A stretch of 64,000 bases of DNA from Methanospirillum stamsii (GTDB lineage: Archaea; Halobacteriota; Methanomicrobia; Methanomicrobiales; Methanospirillaceae). Made by a program: the position numbers and the translations under genes. Each line of letters begins with the position of its first letter. Position 1 is the first letter of the stretch. Positions 20,313 to 25,509 of the stretch are shown here, piece after piece. Under the pieces are notes generated by a model. The model was given only the letters and a program-made list of their open reading frames with translations, made no database searches and had not been told where the DNA came from. The stretch lies in NCBI RefSeq assembly GCF_003173335.1, contig NZ_QGMZ01000038.1, positions 1 to 64,000 on the forward strand, in the 5' to 3' direction.

Positions 20313-21587
20313 CTATCGTAGTATCTGGATTACTATTTGTTCATCTACCTGTGCAAGCCGGCCTTCAGACTCATCCATGATAACTTCCCAGATTTTATCT
20401 GTATTGGTATCAAACCACATCTCTTTTGTCCTTCCATGTCTTCCCCGGTTAACCAGCCTCGTGTTTATTACTCCAAGCATATTCAGTTCAGAAATAAGAT
20501 CAGAAATCCTCCGGGAAGTCAGGACATCTATCTCAAGAAAAGGAGTGAGTTCTTTATAGATTCGGGTAACATCACCTGAAATAAAAATTTTCTGACCAGC
20601 CCGGTGAAGAAGAAGCATACAATACAGAACAATTTTACTCTGGGTTGGAAGTGTCCTGATACACTCAACCATACTGTCTGTTTCAATTTTTGCCTGTGCC
20701 TTTTTTACATGGGCAACAGTCACTTTTACATTATTCTCCCGATCAGCCAGTTCTCCAGATATCCGGAGTAAATCAAGTGCTCTCCGGGCATCTCCGTGTT
20801 CCTGGGCTGCAAGGGCTGAGCAAAGAGGAATTACTTCATCCTCCAGAGCATTTTCTGCAAACCCAATAACTGCACGCTGCTGAAGAATATCACAGAGTTG
20901 AGGAGCGTTATATGGAGGAAAAACAAGTTCTTCTTCTGAAAGTGACGATAACACACGGGGATCGAGAAATGTTTTAAAACCAAGATCATTTGAGATTCCA
21001 ATAATGGAAACCTTGGATCGGTGAAGATCTGTATTGATCCTGGTAAGGTTATAGAGTGTATCATCACCGCTCTTTTTTACCAGTTTATCAATTTCATCAA
21101 GTATTATTATGAAAACTCCGGAACTATTGTCTATCTGATTTTTTAATTCACTGTATACCTGATCAGTAGGCCAGCCGGTCATTGGAATGTGAGTTCTGGT
21201 TTTATCACTTGGAGTTTCATCTTCTCCAAGAATGAGTTTGGATATCTGGGCTAAAACCCTGTATTGAGTATCAATTACTTCACAATTAAGATGAATAACC
21301 CGGCAGATGGTCCCTCTCCGGGAACTAACTGCTTCAAGCTCAGTTCCAACATATCTGACTGAGGCTGTTTTTCCTGTTCCTGTTTTTCCGTAGATAAGGA
21401 TATTGGAGGGTGTTTCCATCTGGAGAGCAGGGGCTAATATCGAAGCTATCTGATCAATCTGTGGTTTTCTATGAGGAAGAATATGAGGCCGGTATGAGTG
21501 TCTGAGTACTTCACGATCCCGGAAAATTCGATTTTCTGAAAGAAATTTGTCAAAAAGGCCGGGAGCTTCCTGTGTATCATCAGTCAT
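20313..21587 (-). CDS. orc1: Orc1/Cdc6 replication initiator
   Basis: About 424 residues from the ATG at 21587. It is an AAA+ ATPase: Walker A GKTGTGKTAS near residue 68, Walker B IIILDEIDKL, and a sensor segment IIGISNDLGF. A C-terminal winged helix binds origin DNA (LTSRRISDLISELNMLGV). The protein loads MCM at the origin. It is transcribed away from the adjacent ORB-flanked region (21661-21901), the usual arrangement in archaea. The longer frame to 21626 lacks family similarity. Confidence 0.95.
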   Translation of the reverse strand: MTDDTQEAPGLFDKFLSENRIFRDREVLRHSYRPHILPHRKPQIDQIASILAPALQMETPSNILIYGKTGTGKTASVRYVGTELEAVSSRRGTICRVIHLNCEVIDTQYRVLAQISKLILGEDETPSDKTRTHIPMTGWPTDQVYSELKNQIDNSSGVFIIILDEIDKLVKKSGDDTLYNLTRINTDLHRSKVSIIGISNDLGFKTFLDPRVLSSLSEEELVFPPYNAPQLCDILQQRAVIGFAENALEDEVIPLCSALAAQEHGDARRALDLLRISGELADRENNVKVTVAHVKKAQAKIETDSMVECIRTLPTQSKIVLYCMLLLHRAGQKIFISGDVTRIYKELTPFLEIDVLTSRRISDLISELNMLGVINTRLVNRGRHGRTKEMWFDTNTDKIWEVIMDESEGRLAQVDEQIVIQILR

Positions 21588-21660
21588 GAAATAAGTAATC
21601 CTTCTATGGTTAGATGGATATTCCAATAATACTACTGGACTCAGAAGACAAAAATATGGT

Positions 21661-21901
21661 GTACCCCCACCCCTTAGTTTCCACTGGAACTGATTTTTTC
21701 CTTACCTTGGGATAAAAAATGAAAAAAAGAATATTTCCTTGTTGTAAAGGTCAGTGTTTGTACATATATAATTTTCTAAACTTTTTACTTCATATTATGC
21801 ATTTTTTCAATTCTTTTACTTTAAAGAAAATACAAAAAAACTGTTCAAAAGAATAATGAGTTACAACCTAATGTGTTTCCAATGGAAACTAAGGGGTGGG
21901 G
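21661..21901. other. Replication origin: two inverted ORB elements around an A+T-rich core
   Basis: Left element 21661-21690 and right element 21875-21901 are inverted copies. Both contain a dyad of the type TTCCANTGGAA joined to CTAAGGGGTGGGG. Eighteen consecutive bases (CCCACCCCTTAGTTTCCA on the top strand at the left) match between them. The intervening 180 bases are very A+T-rich with no gene, as expected of a duplex-unwinding element. The G-string orientation points outward on both sides. orc1/cdc6 lies directly to the left. Confidence 0.88.
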
Positions 21902-21947: not shown

Positions 21948-22436
21948 ATGGATCCATCGCATGTTCAGGATGTAGCTGTACACGTTGCAGTTATGGTTAT
22001 ATCTTCATCCAGAACTGAAAAGGAAGATACAGCCGGGAAAAAAATCCAGTCTCTTTGTAAGGATGCTTCAATTCCTGTTGATCATTATGTAGTTATTCCG
22101 GATAATATTGAAAAAATCAGAGGCGAATTACAAGTTGCTCTGAAAAAAGCAAATTGTGTAATTATTACCGGAGGAACAGGAATAACTCATGATGACTGTA
22201 CCATTGAAGCAGTAGAACCTCTTTTGCAGAAATGTCTTACCGGATTTGGAGAGCTTTTCAGATCAAAAAGTTTTGAAGAAATTGGAACAAGAATGGTTCT
22301 TAGCAGGGCTACTGCCGGTATCATCGATGGAAAAGCAGTCTTTTGTATACCAGGTTCGAAAAATGCAGCAGAACTGGCTACCCGGGATATTATTCTTCCG
22401 GAAATCAGTCATATCCTTACTCATGCTAACCGATAA
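21948..22436 (+). CDS. moaB: MoaB/Mog-family molybdopterin protein
   Basis: A 162-residue protein that adenylylates molybdopterin or otherwise serves tungsten/molybdenum cofactor synthesis. Motifs are VMVISSSRT near residue 15, ITGGTGITHDDCTIEA around residue 77, and the final CIPGSKNAAELA. Methanogens need this cofactor for formylmethanofuran dehydrogenase and formate dehydrogenase. It is immediately right of the origin and transcribed away from it. Confidence 0.92.
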   Translation: MDPSHVQDVAVHVAVMVISSSRTEKEDTAGKKIQSLCKDASIPVDHYVVIPDNIEKIRGELQVALKKANCVIITGGTGITHDDCTIEAVEPLLQKCLTGFGELFRSKSFEEIGTRMVLSRATAGIIDGKAVFCIPGSKNAAELATRDIILPEISHILTHANR

Positions 22437-22573: not shown

Positions 22574-23110
22574 TCAATGGTTTACCGTGAGAAGAGCTGA
22601 CCGCTCACAAACCAATTCTGCAATTTTTTCTTCTCCGGTCACACTGAGTTCTTCTGGAGTTATTCCAAAAAAGTTGGATAGTCTTTTTATTTTTTCTTCA
22701 TCCAGATCATTCCAGTCTTCATCTAAGATCTCTTTCATCCGGGTTAAAAGAACGGTAACTACTTTTTCTGAAGGAGGAATGATACAGAGATAACAGGAGT
22801 TTTCCCCTTTATCCGGACCAAATGGTCCTATCTGACCGGTCTGTCTGGTACCTCCGGCATACAATAGAACTTCTATCTCAAGACTGCGGGCTATCTGTTT
22901 TCCTTCTTTCCATGATCTGATGGCGTGAACAAGGGTTGTCTCAACATGACTAAACCCTGCCATCATATTCCGGTTCAGGCATACAATTGAAACTCCATAC
23001 TGTTCTCCGGTTTCCCGGAGAAATGAAAGGAATGAAGTTCTGTCATCCATGGTAAACCTGACCGGAATGATGCAATAATCATCAGTGAAAATTCTTCTAT
23101 TAGTCAACAT
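22574..23110 (-). CDS. cgi121: KEOPS complex subunit Cgi121
   Basis: 178 residues. The segment LVHAIRSWKEGKQIARSLEIEVLLYAGGTRQTGQI is the Cgi121 core, which binds the tRNA CCA end within KEOPS during t6A formation. The C-terminal half is less conserved. Its start overlaps the hel308 stop by seven bases, a recurrent neighbourhood in euryarchaea, which supports the call. A convergent T-rich region separates it from moaB. Confidence 0.82.
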   Translation of the reverse strand: MLTNRRIFTDDYCIIPVRFTMDDRTSFLSFLRETGEQYGVSIVCLNRNMMAGFSHVETTLVHAIRSWKEGKQIARSLEIEVLLYAGGTRQTGQIGPFGPDKGENSCYLCIIPPSEKVVTVLLTRMKEILDEDWNDLDEEKIKRLSNFFGITPEELSVTGEEKIAELVCERSALLTVNH

Positions 23111-25509
23111 CCAAAATCCTCCCAGGATGACTGTCCGGTAATCTTCTGTTCACGTAAAGGGGATTCATTTCTTTCAGCTTTTATTCCCGTTTCAGGGGTA
23201 AGCTCTGATAGGATTGCAAGAATTTTTTCAGTTCTGGCTGAACCTAAAATGTTAGACAAGGAGACCTTGTCTGCGGTCAAAAGATCTGATATGGTATTTA
23301 TTCCTTCATTTTGTAATTTTTGAGCTATTTTTGGGCCGATGCCAGGAATATCAGTCAGTTTTTGTGGTTTATATTCCGGTTTATTTTCTGCTTCAAAACC
23401 AGATTTTCCTGATTTTTTTACTCCGGAAATTTCTTCAATGACCTGTCGTGCTATTCCCTCTCCTATTAACCGTGCAATCCTTGAAACACCTGCTTTTGCT
23501 ACTGATTCCGGATCCGGATATCCTGCATTGAAAAGAGTTCGAGCTCTTACCCGGCCGATATTTCTGAGGGTAATGAGTGGCAGGAGTTCTGCTTTTATCC
23601 CGTGATGGACCCTTGTTGCAAGGGTTGCAATTGTTTTACCCAATTCAGGAATATGGGTGGATACCAATCGCTCAGTAGCATGTAAGAGCCATTTACCTGA
23701 ATCGACGATGTTATACAGATCACCAGCCCCGATACCATATCGTTCTTCTATCTGTTTTTCCGATATCTCATCAGCCCAATCACCTAATACAAGGGCAGTT
23801 TTCAATCCTGAAAGCCACAATTCCTCCTCTTCCTGTTCAAATGGAAGTGGAAGGATCAGGTCATCATTGTGTTTGAAAAGAAATGTCCGGAGCATCTGTG
23901 TATCGGCAGATTTCAGGTATAACCGCTGCATGTCCGGAGATACACAGATGACATGCAAAAGTCCGATGAGGGTGAGAGTTTTTCCAGGTTTAAGGTTTTC
24001 AAGGATGAGTCTAGCAGTACAGGGATTCAGATAGAGACGTGAGACCAGGTTTCCAAGGGAGGTAGCTGATAATGTCTGCTCTGACTGGTGGATCATCTCT
24101 GCCTGTGTAAGAAACCGGATTGCATCGGATATTATCCTTGGAAGAGAGCGGGTTTTCGGATGTTGGTGCACATAAAAAGTCCGGTTCATAAATTCAGTGA
24201 GAGCCTGCTCATCTGATGCAAATCCGGTGGCAATCAGTGAAAGAATATGAGCACATAGTGAGTTGTCATCAACACATTGTGAATCAATTCGCTCTGTTTC
24301 TGCATCGATAAAGGTATCAAAAAGTCTTTCTACAGTCGGGGCATCTTTTGCAATAAGAACCGCTTCACCATAGGGGTCCAGGTGTGGTCTTCCTGCTCTG
24401 CCGGCCATCTGGTGGTATTCACCAACCGGGATGGGAACCATCCCAAGTCCTGAAGAAAACCGTGAATAATCCCTGATGATGACTCTTCGTGCTGGAAGAT
24501 TGAGGCCTGCTGCCAGGGTGGGAGTAGCAGAGATAACCTCGATGAATCCATTTCTGAATCCTTCTTCAATTATCGCACGCTCCTGTCTGAGAAGACCTGC
24601 ATGGTGAAAGGCGGCTCCCTTTTCCACACAATCAGCGAGAAGGTTTCCTTCGTCCCTGTCCCGGAGTTTCCTGATTTGCCGTCCCAGTTCCCGTGTGTCA
24701 GGGGTTCCGGCTTTGAGTGCTCCGGCTGCTTTTTTTGCAAATCCTTCCGCATTTCTCCTGGATGAGACAAAGACCAGGCACTGACCTCCTTCTTCGATGG
24801 TATCCAGGCAGAGATTTAAGTCGTCATGTTTTGTCTTTGCATGGACTGGTCGTTCTGATCCGGCAAACCTGATCTTCCCGTCATAATAAACTCCCTGTTT
24901 CAGGTCCACCGGACGCCATGAACTTGTAACAAGTTTCGCATCAAGCCACTCTGCAAGCTGGCCGGGATTTCCAATGGTTGCAGAAAGACCGATAACCTGC
25001 AAACCAGGGTTTGTGTACCTAAGCTTGGTAATTACCATCTCCAGGGTTGCACCCCGGTTTTCTGATCCAATCAGATGAACTTCGTCCAGGATGATGCAGG
25101 TTATCCGGGAGAGCCAGGGAGTTTTGTTCCTGAGCAGAGAATCGGTCTTCTCACTGGTTGCAACAATGATATCATTATCTCCAAGATACGAATCAGTCCG
25201 ATCAAAGTCACCAGTTGCAATACCTACCCTGATTACTCCTTTCTTTGAAAACTCATCGTACTTCTCCGCTGCCAGTGCCCGGAGGGGTACAATATACAGG
25301 CACTTTCCCCCTGCTCCAATCCGTGACCACATGGCCATTTCTGCAAGAAGAGTCTTTCCACTTGCTGTCGGAATAGAAATAAGGAGATTTTTTCCTTCCA
25401 GGAGGCCATTATGAACGCATTCAGCCTGGGGTGGATACAAGGATGTAATTCCCTTGTTCTTGCATGCACGAATAAAAGGTTCAGGGAGAGGAAGAGACTG
25501 GATATCCAT
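23104..25509 (-). CDS. hel308: ATP-dependent DNA helicase Hel308
   Basis: An 801-residue Ski2-family helicase acting at stalled replication forks. Motif I (PTASGKT) is near residue 50, the DEVH box (ILDEVHLIG) near 145, motif III (LSATIGN), and motif VI (HQMAGRAGR) near residue 370. The winged-helix and ratchet domains follow, and a C-terminal helix-hairpin-helix segment (LTDIPGIGPKIAQKL) is near residue 730. The length is somewhat greater than the usual 700-750 because of the C-terminal HhH tail. It is coupled to cgi121. Confidence 0.95.
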   Translation of the reverse strand: MDIQSLPLPEPFIRACKNKGITSLYPPQAECVHNGLLEGKNLLISIPTASGKTLLAEMAMWSRIGAGGKCLYIVPLRALAAEKYDEFSKKGVIRVGIATGDFDRTDSYLGDNDIIVATSEKTDSLLRNKTPWLSRITCIILDEVHLIGSENRGATLEMVITKLRYTNPGLQVIGLSATIGNPGQLAEWLDAKLVTSSWRPVDLKQGVYYDGKIRFAGSERPVHAKTKHDDLNLCLDTIEEGGQCLVFVSSRRNAEGFAKKAAGALKAGTPDTRELGRQIRKLRDRDEGNLLADCVEKGAAFHHAGLLRQERAIIEEGFRNGFIEVISATPTLAAGLNLPARRVIIRDYSRFSSGLGMVPIPVGEYHQMAGRAGRPHLDPYGEAVLIAKDAPTVERLFDTFIDAETERIDSQCVDDNSLCAHILSLIATGFASDEQALTEFMNRTFYVHQHPKTRSLPRIISDAIRFLTQAEMIHQSEQTLSATSLGNLVSRLYLNPCTARLILENLKPGKTLTLIGLLHVICVSPDMQRLYLKSADTQMLRTFLFKHNDDLILPLPFEQEEEELWLSGLKTALVLGDWADEISEKQIEERYGIGAGDLYNIVDSGKWLLHATERLVSTHIPELGKTIATLATRVHHGIKAELLPLITLRNIGRVRARTLFNAGYPDPESVAKAGVSRIARLIGEGIARQVIEEISGVKKSGKSGFEAENKPEYKPQKLTDIPGIGPKIAQKLQNEGINTISDLLTADKVSLSNILGSARTEKILAILSELTPETGIKAERNESPLREQKITGQSSWEDFGC

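Follow-up and report, generated by a model that had tools for sequence, protein, structure and literature searches.

The minimal oriC1 of Haloarcula hispanica has an A+T-rich region between inverted ORBs and essential outer G-strings, and mutagenesis has shown that both ORBs are needed (PMC3936714); the same haloarchaeal paper regards the extended G-string as specific to halophiles (PMC3936714). At Sulfolobus oriC1, ORB2 and ORB3 each bind a monomer of Orc1-1, flank the duplex unwinding element (DUE) and are both needed (PMC12141716). For Methanomicrobia, the published ORB motif reads TCCA[GC]T[GT]GAAA[CT][AG]A[AT]GGGGT (PMC4164010).

The locus described here, which lies within a 64-kb window (the whole stretch of DNA that was analysed), is almost certainly the chromosomal replication origin, of the oriC1 type and probably the only one, of a Methanospirillum species. 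The marks of such an origin are found together: a pair of inverted ORBs, each having a dyad and a G-string, an A+T-rich unwinding region between them, an intact and adjoining orc1/cdc6 gene of the initiator group, an orthologous position that is conserved in relatives, and a compositional strand switch (the last with coding correction only, in the window and in the relatives G001 and, for AT3, G008, and not in G003). This type of origin is ordinary and well understood, and the present one is a further example of it. A search of one collection of papers did not find this origin in Methanospirillum described, and databases such as DoriC may list it. What is gained is that the origin and the likely replichore layout of Methanospirillum are fixed from sequence alone.

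The ORB pair and its surroundings

In both ORBs a G-string, GGGGTGGGG, comes after a TCCA-N-TGGA dyad, and both are oriented with the dyad inward, to the A+T-rich spacer, and the doubled G-string outward (Table 1). They form an inverted pair of 25-nt sequences (21665-21689 and 21877-21901), complementary at 24/25 positions and separated by 187 nt. An earlier note on this DNA had described two inverted copies of a dyad plus G-string element, flanking A+T-rich DNA and lying beside orc1/cdc6; that description stands in each of these parts, and only its count of ‘18 identical bases’ proves slightly low (the first 19 are identical and contiguous).

No other inverted pair of 25-mers that match at 21 or more of 25 positions, with a spacing of 60-300 bp, occurs in the window; the same search in eight dinucleotide shuffles of the window returned best values of 0, 0, 0, 0, 0, 0, 0 and 21. 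Throughout the 3.74-Mb genome, the full 26-mer is found with up to three mismatches at these two sites only, and its reversed control gave no matches at the same threshold. When a profile was built from the ORBs of relatives only (the scores of the two sites are given in Table 1), the next site in the 64 kb reached 0.8 bits. Measured against the published methanomicrobial motif, the left ORB departs from it once (T for [AG] before AAGGGGT) and the right ORB twice (T for [AG] and A for [GC]). Among all 187-bp stretches of the window, the one with the highest A+T content starts at 21691; the spacer comes within 0.5% of that maximum and is likely to be the duplex unwinding element.

The adjoining initiator gene is taken to start with the ATG at 21587 in preference to the TTG at 21626, which would give a longer open reading frame. 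Its product is intact (Walker A, GKTGTGKT; Walker B, LDEID; wing, NRGRHGRTKE), the closest solved structures are those of Aeropyrum ORC1 (2v1u, E 1e-100) and Sulfolobus Orc1-1 (2qby_A, E 4e-95), and relatives of the gene were present in all 41 genomes searched. The conserved block just upstream of the gene, which across the genus takes the form TCCA-N11-12-GGA around its ATAATACT core, is probably the core promoter of orc1; other genera have in its place a third ORB, with a TATA-like stretch directly adjoining its G-string. As for the far side, same-genus loci carry minus-strand genes of similar size after moaB, as cgi121 and hel308 follow it in the window.

Table 1. Features of the origin region, with positions in the window
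Feature	Position	Strand	Remarks
orc1/cdc6 initiator gene	20316..21587	minus	424 aa; NCBIfam PRK00411, E 5e-173
TCCA-ATAATACT-TGGA block	21617..21639	minus	genus-conserved, just upstream of orc1
left ORB	21665..21690	minus	GTTCCAGTGGAAACTAAGGGGTGGGG; 40.6 bits, relatives-only matrix
A+T-rich spacer	21690..21876	no strand	187 bp; 76.5% A+T
conserved spacer element	21735..21772	plus	genus variant at 21739-21766; order-wide motif search
right ORB	21876..21901	plus	TTTCCAATGGAAACTAAGGGGTGGGG; 37.2 bits, relatives-only matrix
moaB/mogA-like molybdopterin protein	21948..22436	plus	far-side neighbour in most Methanomicrobiales
KEOPS subunit Cgi121	22574..23110	minus	neighbour
Hel308-type helicase	23104..25509	minus	neighbour

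Conservation among relatives

The pair that adjoins orc1 recurs throughout the genus (close loci carry the name Methanospirillum) and at the majority of the order's loci. Nine same-genus intergenic regions could be aligned, and in these the ORBs stand out as the main conserved blocks in a sequence that has otherwise mostly drifted; the spacing of the pair is 187-208 bp in all nine of the aligned species and, outside the genus, 216-219 bp in four loci. A long-motif search of twelve genus genomes found an inverted pair, one per genome, in ten; all seven near-complete genomes are among these, and the two that lack it are incomplete assemblies.

The order-wide comparative set also allows spacer-facing ORBs, which often carry a doubled G-string (GGGGT-N-GGG), to be told apart from promoter-proximal ones. 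When ORBs upstream of orc1 were counted in the window and in the loci of relatives, the doubling was present in 26/44 left and 17/35 right spacer-facing ORBs and in 0/36 of those proximal to orc1 (Fisher 1e-9 and 4e-7, values that are inflated by the relatedness of the sequences). Judged from these sequences, a comparable extension of the G-string marks the origin pair of methanogens and is not limited to halophiles.

Compositional skew

The earlier note had placed a skew inversion at 21.7 kb. Raw GC and AT skew have no clear switch at the ORB site in the window, nor have they one in 20-kb samples of three complete relatives, probably because coding-strand bias exceeds replication bias. The inversion does appear when third codon positions are used and plus- and minus-strand genes are centred separately (49 ORFs in the window): the best unconstrained combined change-point falls between the ORFs that end at 21626 and start at 21948, the gap that holds the ORBs. 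At this gap GC3 changes by +0.13 and AT3 by -0.09 (permutation p 0.001 and 0.002, respectively), and the combined statistic was reached by 0/2000 permutations.

Genome-wide, the corrected skew, averaged as in the window over genes of both strands, was followed in forty 20-kb samples for each complete relative (G001, G003 and G008) and at twenty places in G015, which belongs to another genus. G001 switches (combined and AT3) at -0.002 genome from the orthologous site and for a second time at +0.473. G008 switches in AT3 at +0.029 and -0.496 genome from that site, its GC3 and combined change-points lying 0.10 of the genome off. G003 has no corrected switch at the origin and has one about 0.24 genome away, a departure that possibly follows a rearrangement. 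For G015, the right-left comparison gave p 0.012 in GC3 and p 0.043 in AT3. The agreement of the window with two relatives is a stronger argument than these p-values, all of which ignore autocorrelation along the chromosome, and weak archaeal skew is readable once coding bias has been corrected. The reversal agrees with bidirectional firing and lends it support. Given the ORB motif match, the conserved pair, the A+T-rich spacer and the corrected skew switch, the original reading of the locus as a replication origin is supported.

An explanation in which the ORBs serve chiefly as operators, letting Orc1 regulate moaB and its own gene while replication starts elsewhere, has very little probability left to it. 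Both ORBs do lie between two divergent promoters, the third ORB of other genera does stand against the TATA-like stretch of orc1, and solitary ORBs do occur away from the origin; but an operator does not call for an inverted pair that encloses the window's most A+T-rich spacer, the pair is retained where the neighbouring gene differs, and the skew switches at the ORB locus itself.

Solitary ORBs and the second orc gene

Most genomes of the genus also have solitary core ORBs, as a rule between one and three, and a reversed control found none in the same genomes. In the genome of the window, one perfect core copy (L257, ~1501-1520; G000:C5:28598-28617) lies ~430 bp upstream of a grpE-like gene. 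A weaker one (L258, G000:C8:39031) is located beside lysE-like and RNase H-like genes, and a solitary ORB-like site of G001 (L096, at 2903) has the same neighbourhood, so that this position is apparently conserved between the two genomes. In one subclade a solitary core ORB, possibly a titration site, is found on the orc1 side of the origin pair at a distance of ~6.8 kb (G008:C1:2196763, G004:C7:379048 and G002:C349:7118); those elsewhere may be initiator titration or regulatory sites.

The genome also encodes a second, divergent Orc/Cdc6 paralogue (L005, 1357-2481; G000:C44), 24% identical, beside a phosphoglycerate-mutase-like gene. It was considered as the seat of a further origin and set aside, with no ORB in the flank examined. 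It is unlikely that the locus, though truly an origin, has companions in the genome that are marked by this paralogue or by the solitary ORBs. The presence of both, together with a skew in G003 that is not two-armed around the ORB locus, speaks for such an arrangement; but the best score in the searched flank of the second gene was -5.9 bits, no inverted partner lies near the solitary ORBs, almost all of which also lack the doubled G-string, and the two switches of G001 are separated by about half a genome, as expected of a single origin. Taken together, the evidence supports a single bidirectional origin of the oriC1 type.

What the sequence itself shows is the set of conserved elements, an initiator gene that is intact and a switch in skew; from these a course of initiation can be proposed by analogy with the oriC1 of Sulfolobus and of H. 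hispanica. ATP-bound Orc1 from the adjoining gene would bind as one monomer per ORB, contacting the TCCA-TGGA dyad through its winged-helix domain and the G-string through its AAA+/ISM part; the resulting pair of inverted complexes would direct MCM onto the 187-bp A+T-rich spacer, the spacer DNA would melt, and two forks would depart in opposite directions.

A conserved element within the spacer

The spacer itself contains a further element, which is conserved across Methanomicrobiales and, less strongly, in Methanosarcinales; the literature search found no description of it. A rigid 38-bp pattern, AA.A..caTtT.taa.T.T...atTaaTa.TATATAAA, is common to forty non-redundant spacers; its distance inward from the left ORB has a median of 44 bp (IQR 42-51). 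The log-likelihood of this model is 708, compared with 448-463 in shuffles; shorter spacer motifs of 12-14 bp, for which the alignments were weak or mixed, were rejected in favour of this far stronger model. A left-out profile placed the site of the element first in 27/29 loci outside the genus, a count that is favoured by having drawn its instances from the same motif search.

The copy in the window is divergent and is absent from the top hits of the order-wide profile, so that its membership rests on the genus variant. The local form is TTGTTGTA-N13-GTACATA, followed by a TATA-like TATATAA that reads rightward, toward moaB. This form or a close variant is found in 7/7 members of the window's subclade and is absent in that form from the three members of the other genus subclade; the pattern also turns up by chance, on a given strand, in ~4% of 200-bp stretches of similar A+T-richness.

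The element may be a site for a ucm-like protein, or it may be promoter-like. That it is a plain moaB promoter with an upstream activator site, and has no replication role, is a serious contender, if somewhat short of an even chance. Its TATA-like end does point toward moaB, the gene found on that flank in most Methanomicrobiales; but its position relative to the left ORB is fixed, a different gene follows it in Methanosarcinales, moaB is ~1 kb away from it at locus L209, and at locus L206 a strong copy (left-out score 30.4 bits) is followed by no rightward gene of at least 90 aa in the 2.4 kb of sequence covered beyond it. L204 and L209 both carry moaB, so that the case against a plain promoter rests mainly on L206.

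It is tentatively proposed, as an idea that is rather less probable than an even bet, that methanomicrobial origins combine ORBs with a conserved, oriented element of ~38 bp, which lies within the unwinding region and keeps a constant distance to the ORB on the orc1 side, and that this element would either be bound by an auxiliary factor (a euryarchaeal counterpart of ucm/UBP) or act as a promoter whose transcription helps to open the origin, while the solitary core ORBs may be titration or regulatory sites. One guess, by analogy with ucm in Sulfolobus, is that the element might aid melting or helicase release. It is a candidate for mutational analysis of the sort by which the part played by ucm came to light.

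Comparison with described origins

Within the Methanomicrobia, the locus shares with the ORB cluster recorded by DoriC and Ori-Finder 2 (PMC4164010) the core TCCA-T-GAAA--AAGGGGT and a place in the intergenic region adjacent to orc1; unlike that cluster, it has T for [AG] in both copies, A for [GC] in the right copy, and a G-string that is doubled to GGGGTGGGG. The likeness to H. hispanica oriC1 (PMC3936714) is one of arrangement, with dyads inward and extended G-strings at the outer ends, whereas the host here is a methanogen and the neighbouring genes differ. As at Sulfolobus oriC1 (PMC12141716), two inverted ORBs enclose an A+T-rich DUE that carries a further short conserved motif, although the unit from ORB through spacer to ORB spans ~237 bp here as opposed to 130 bp there; in its position, the spacer element can be likened to the crenarchaeal ucm.
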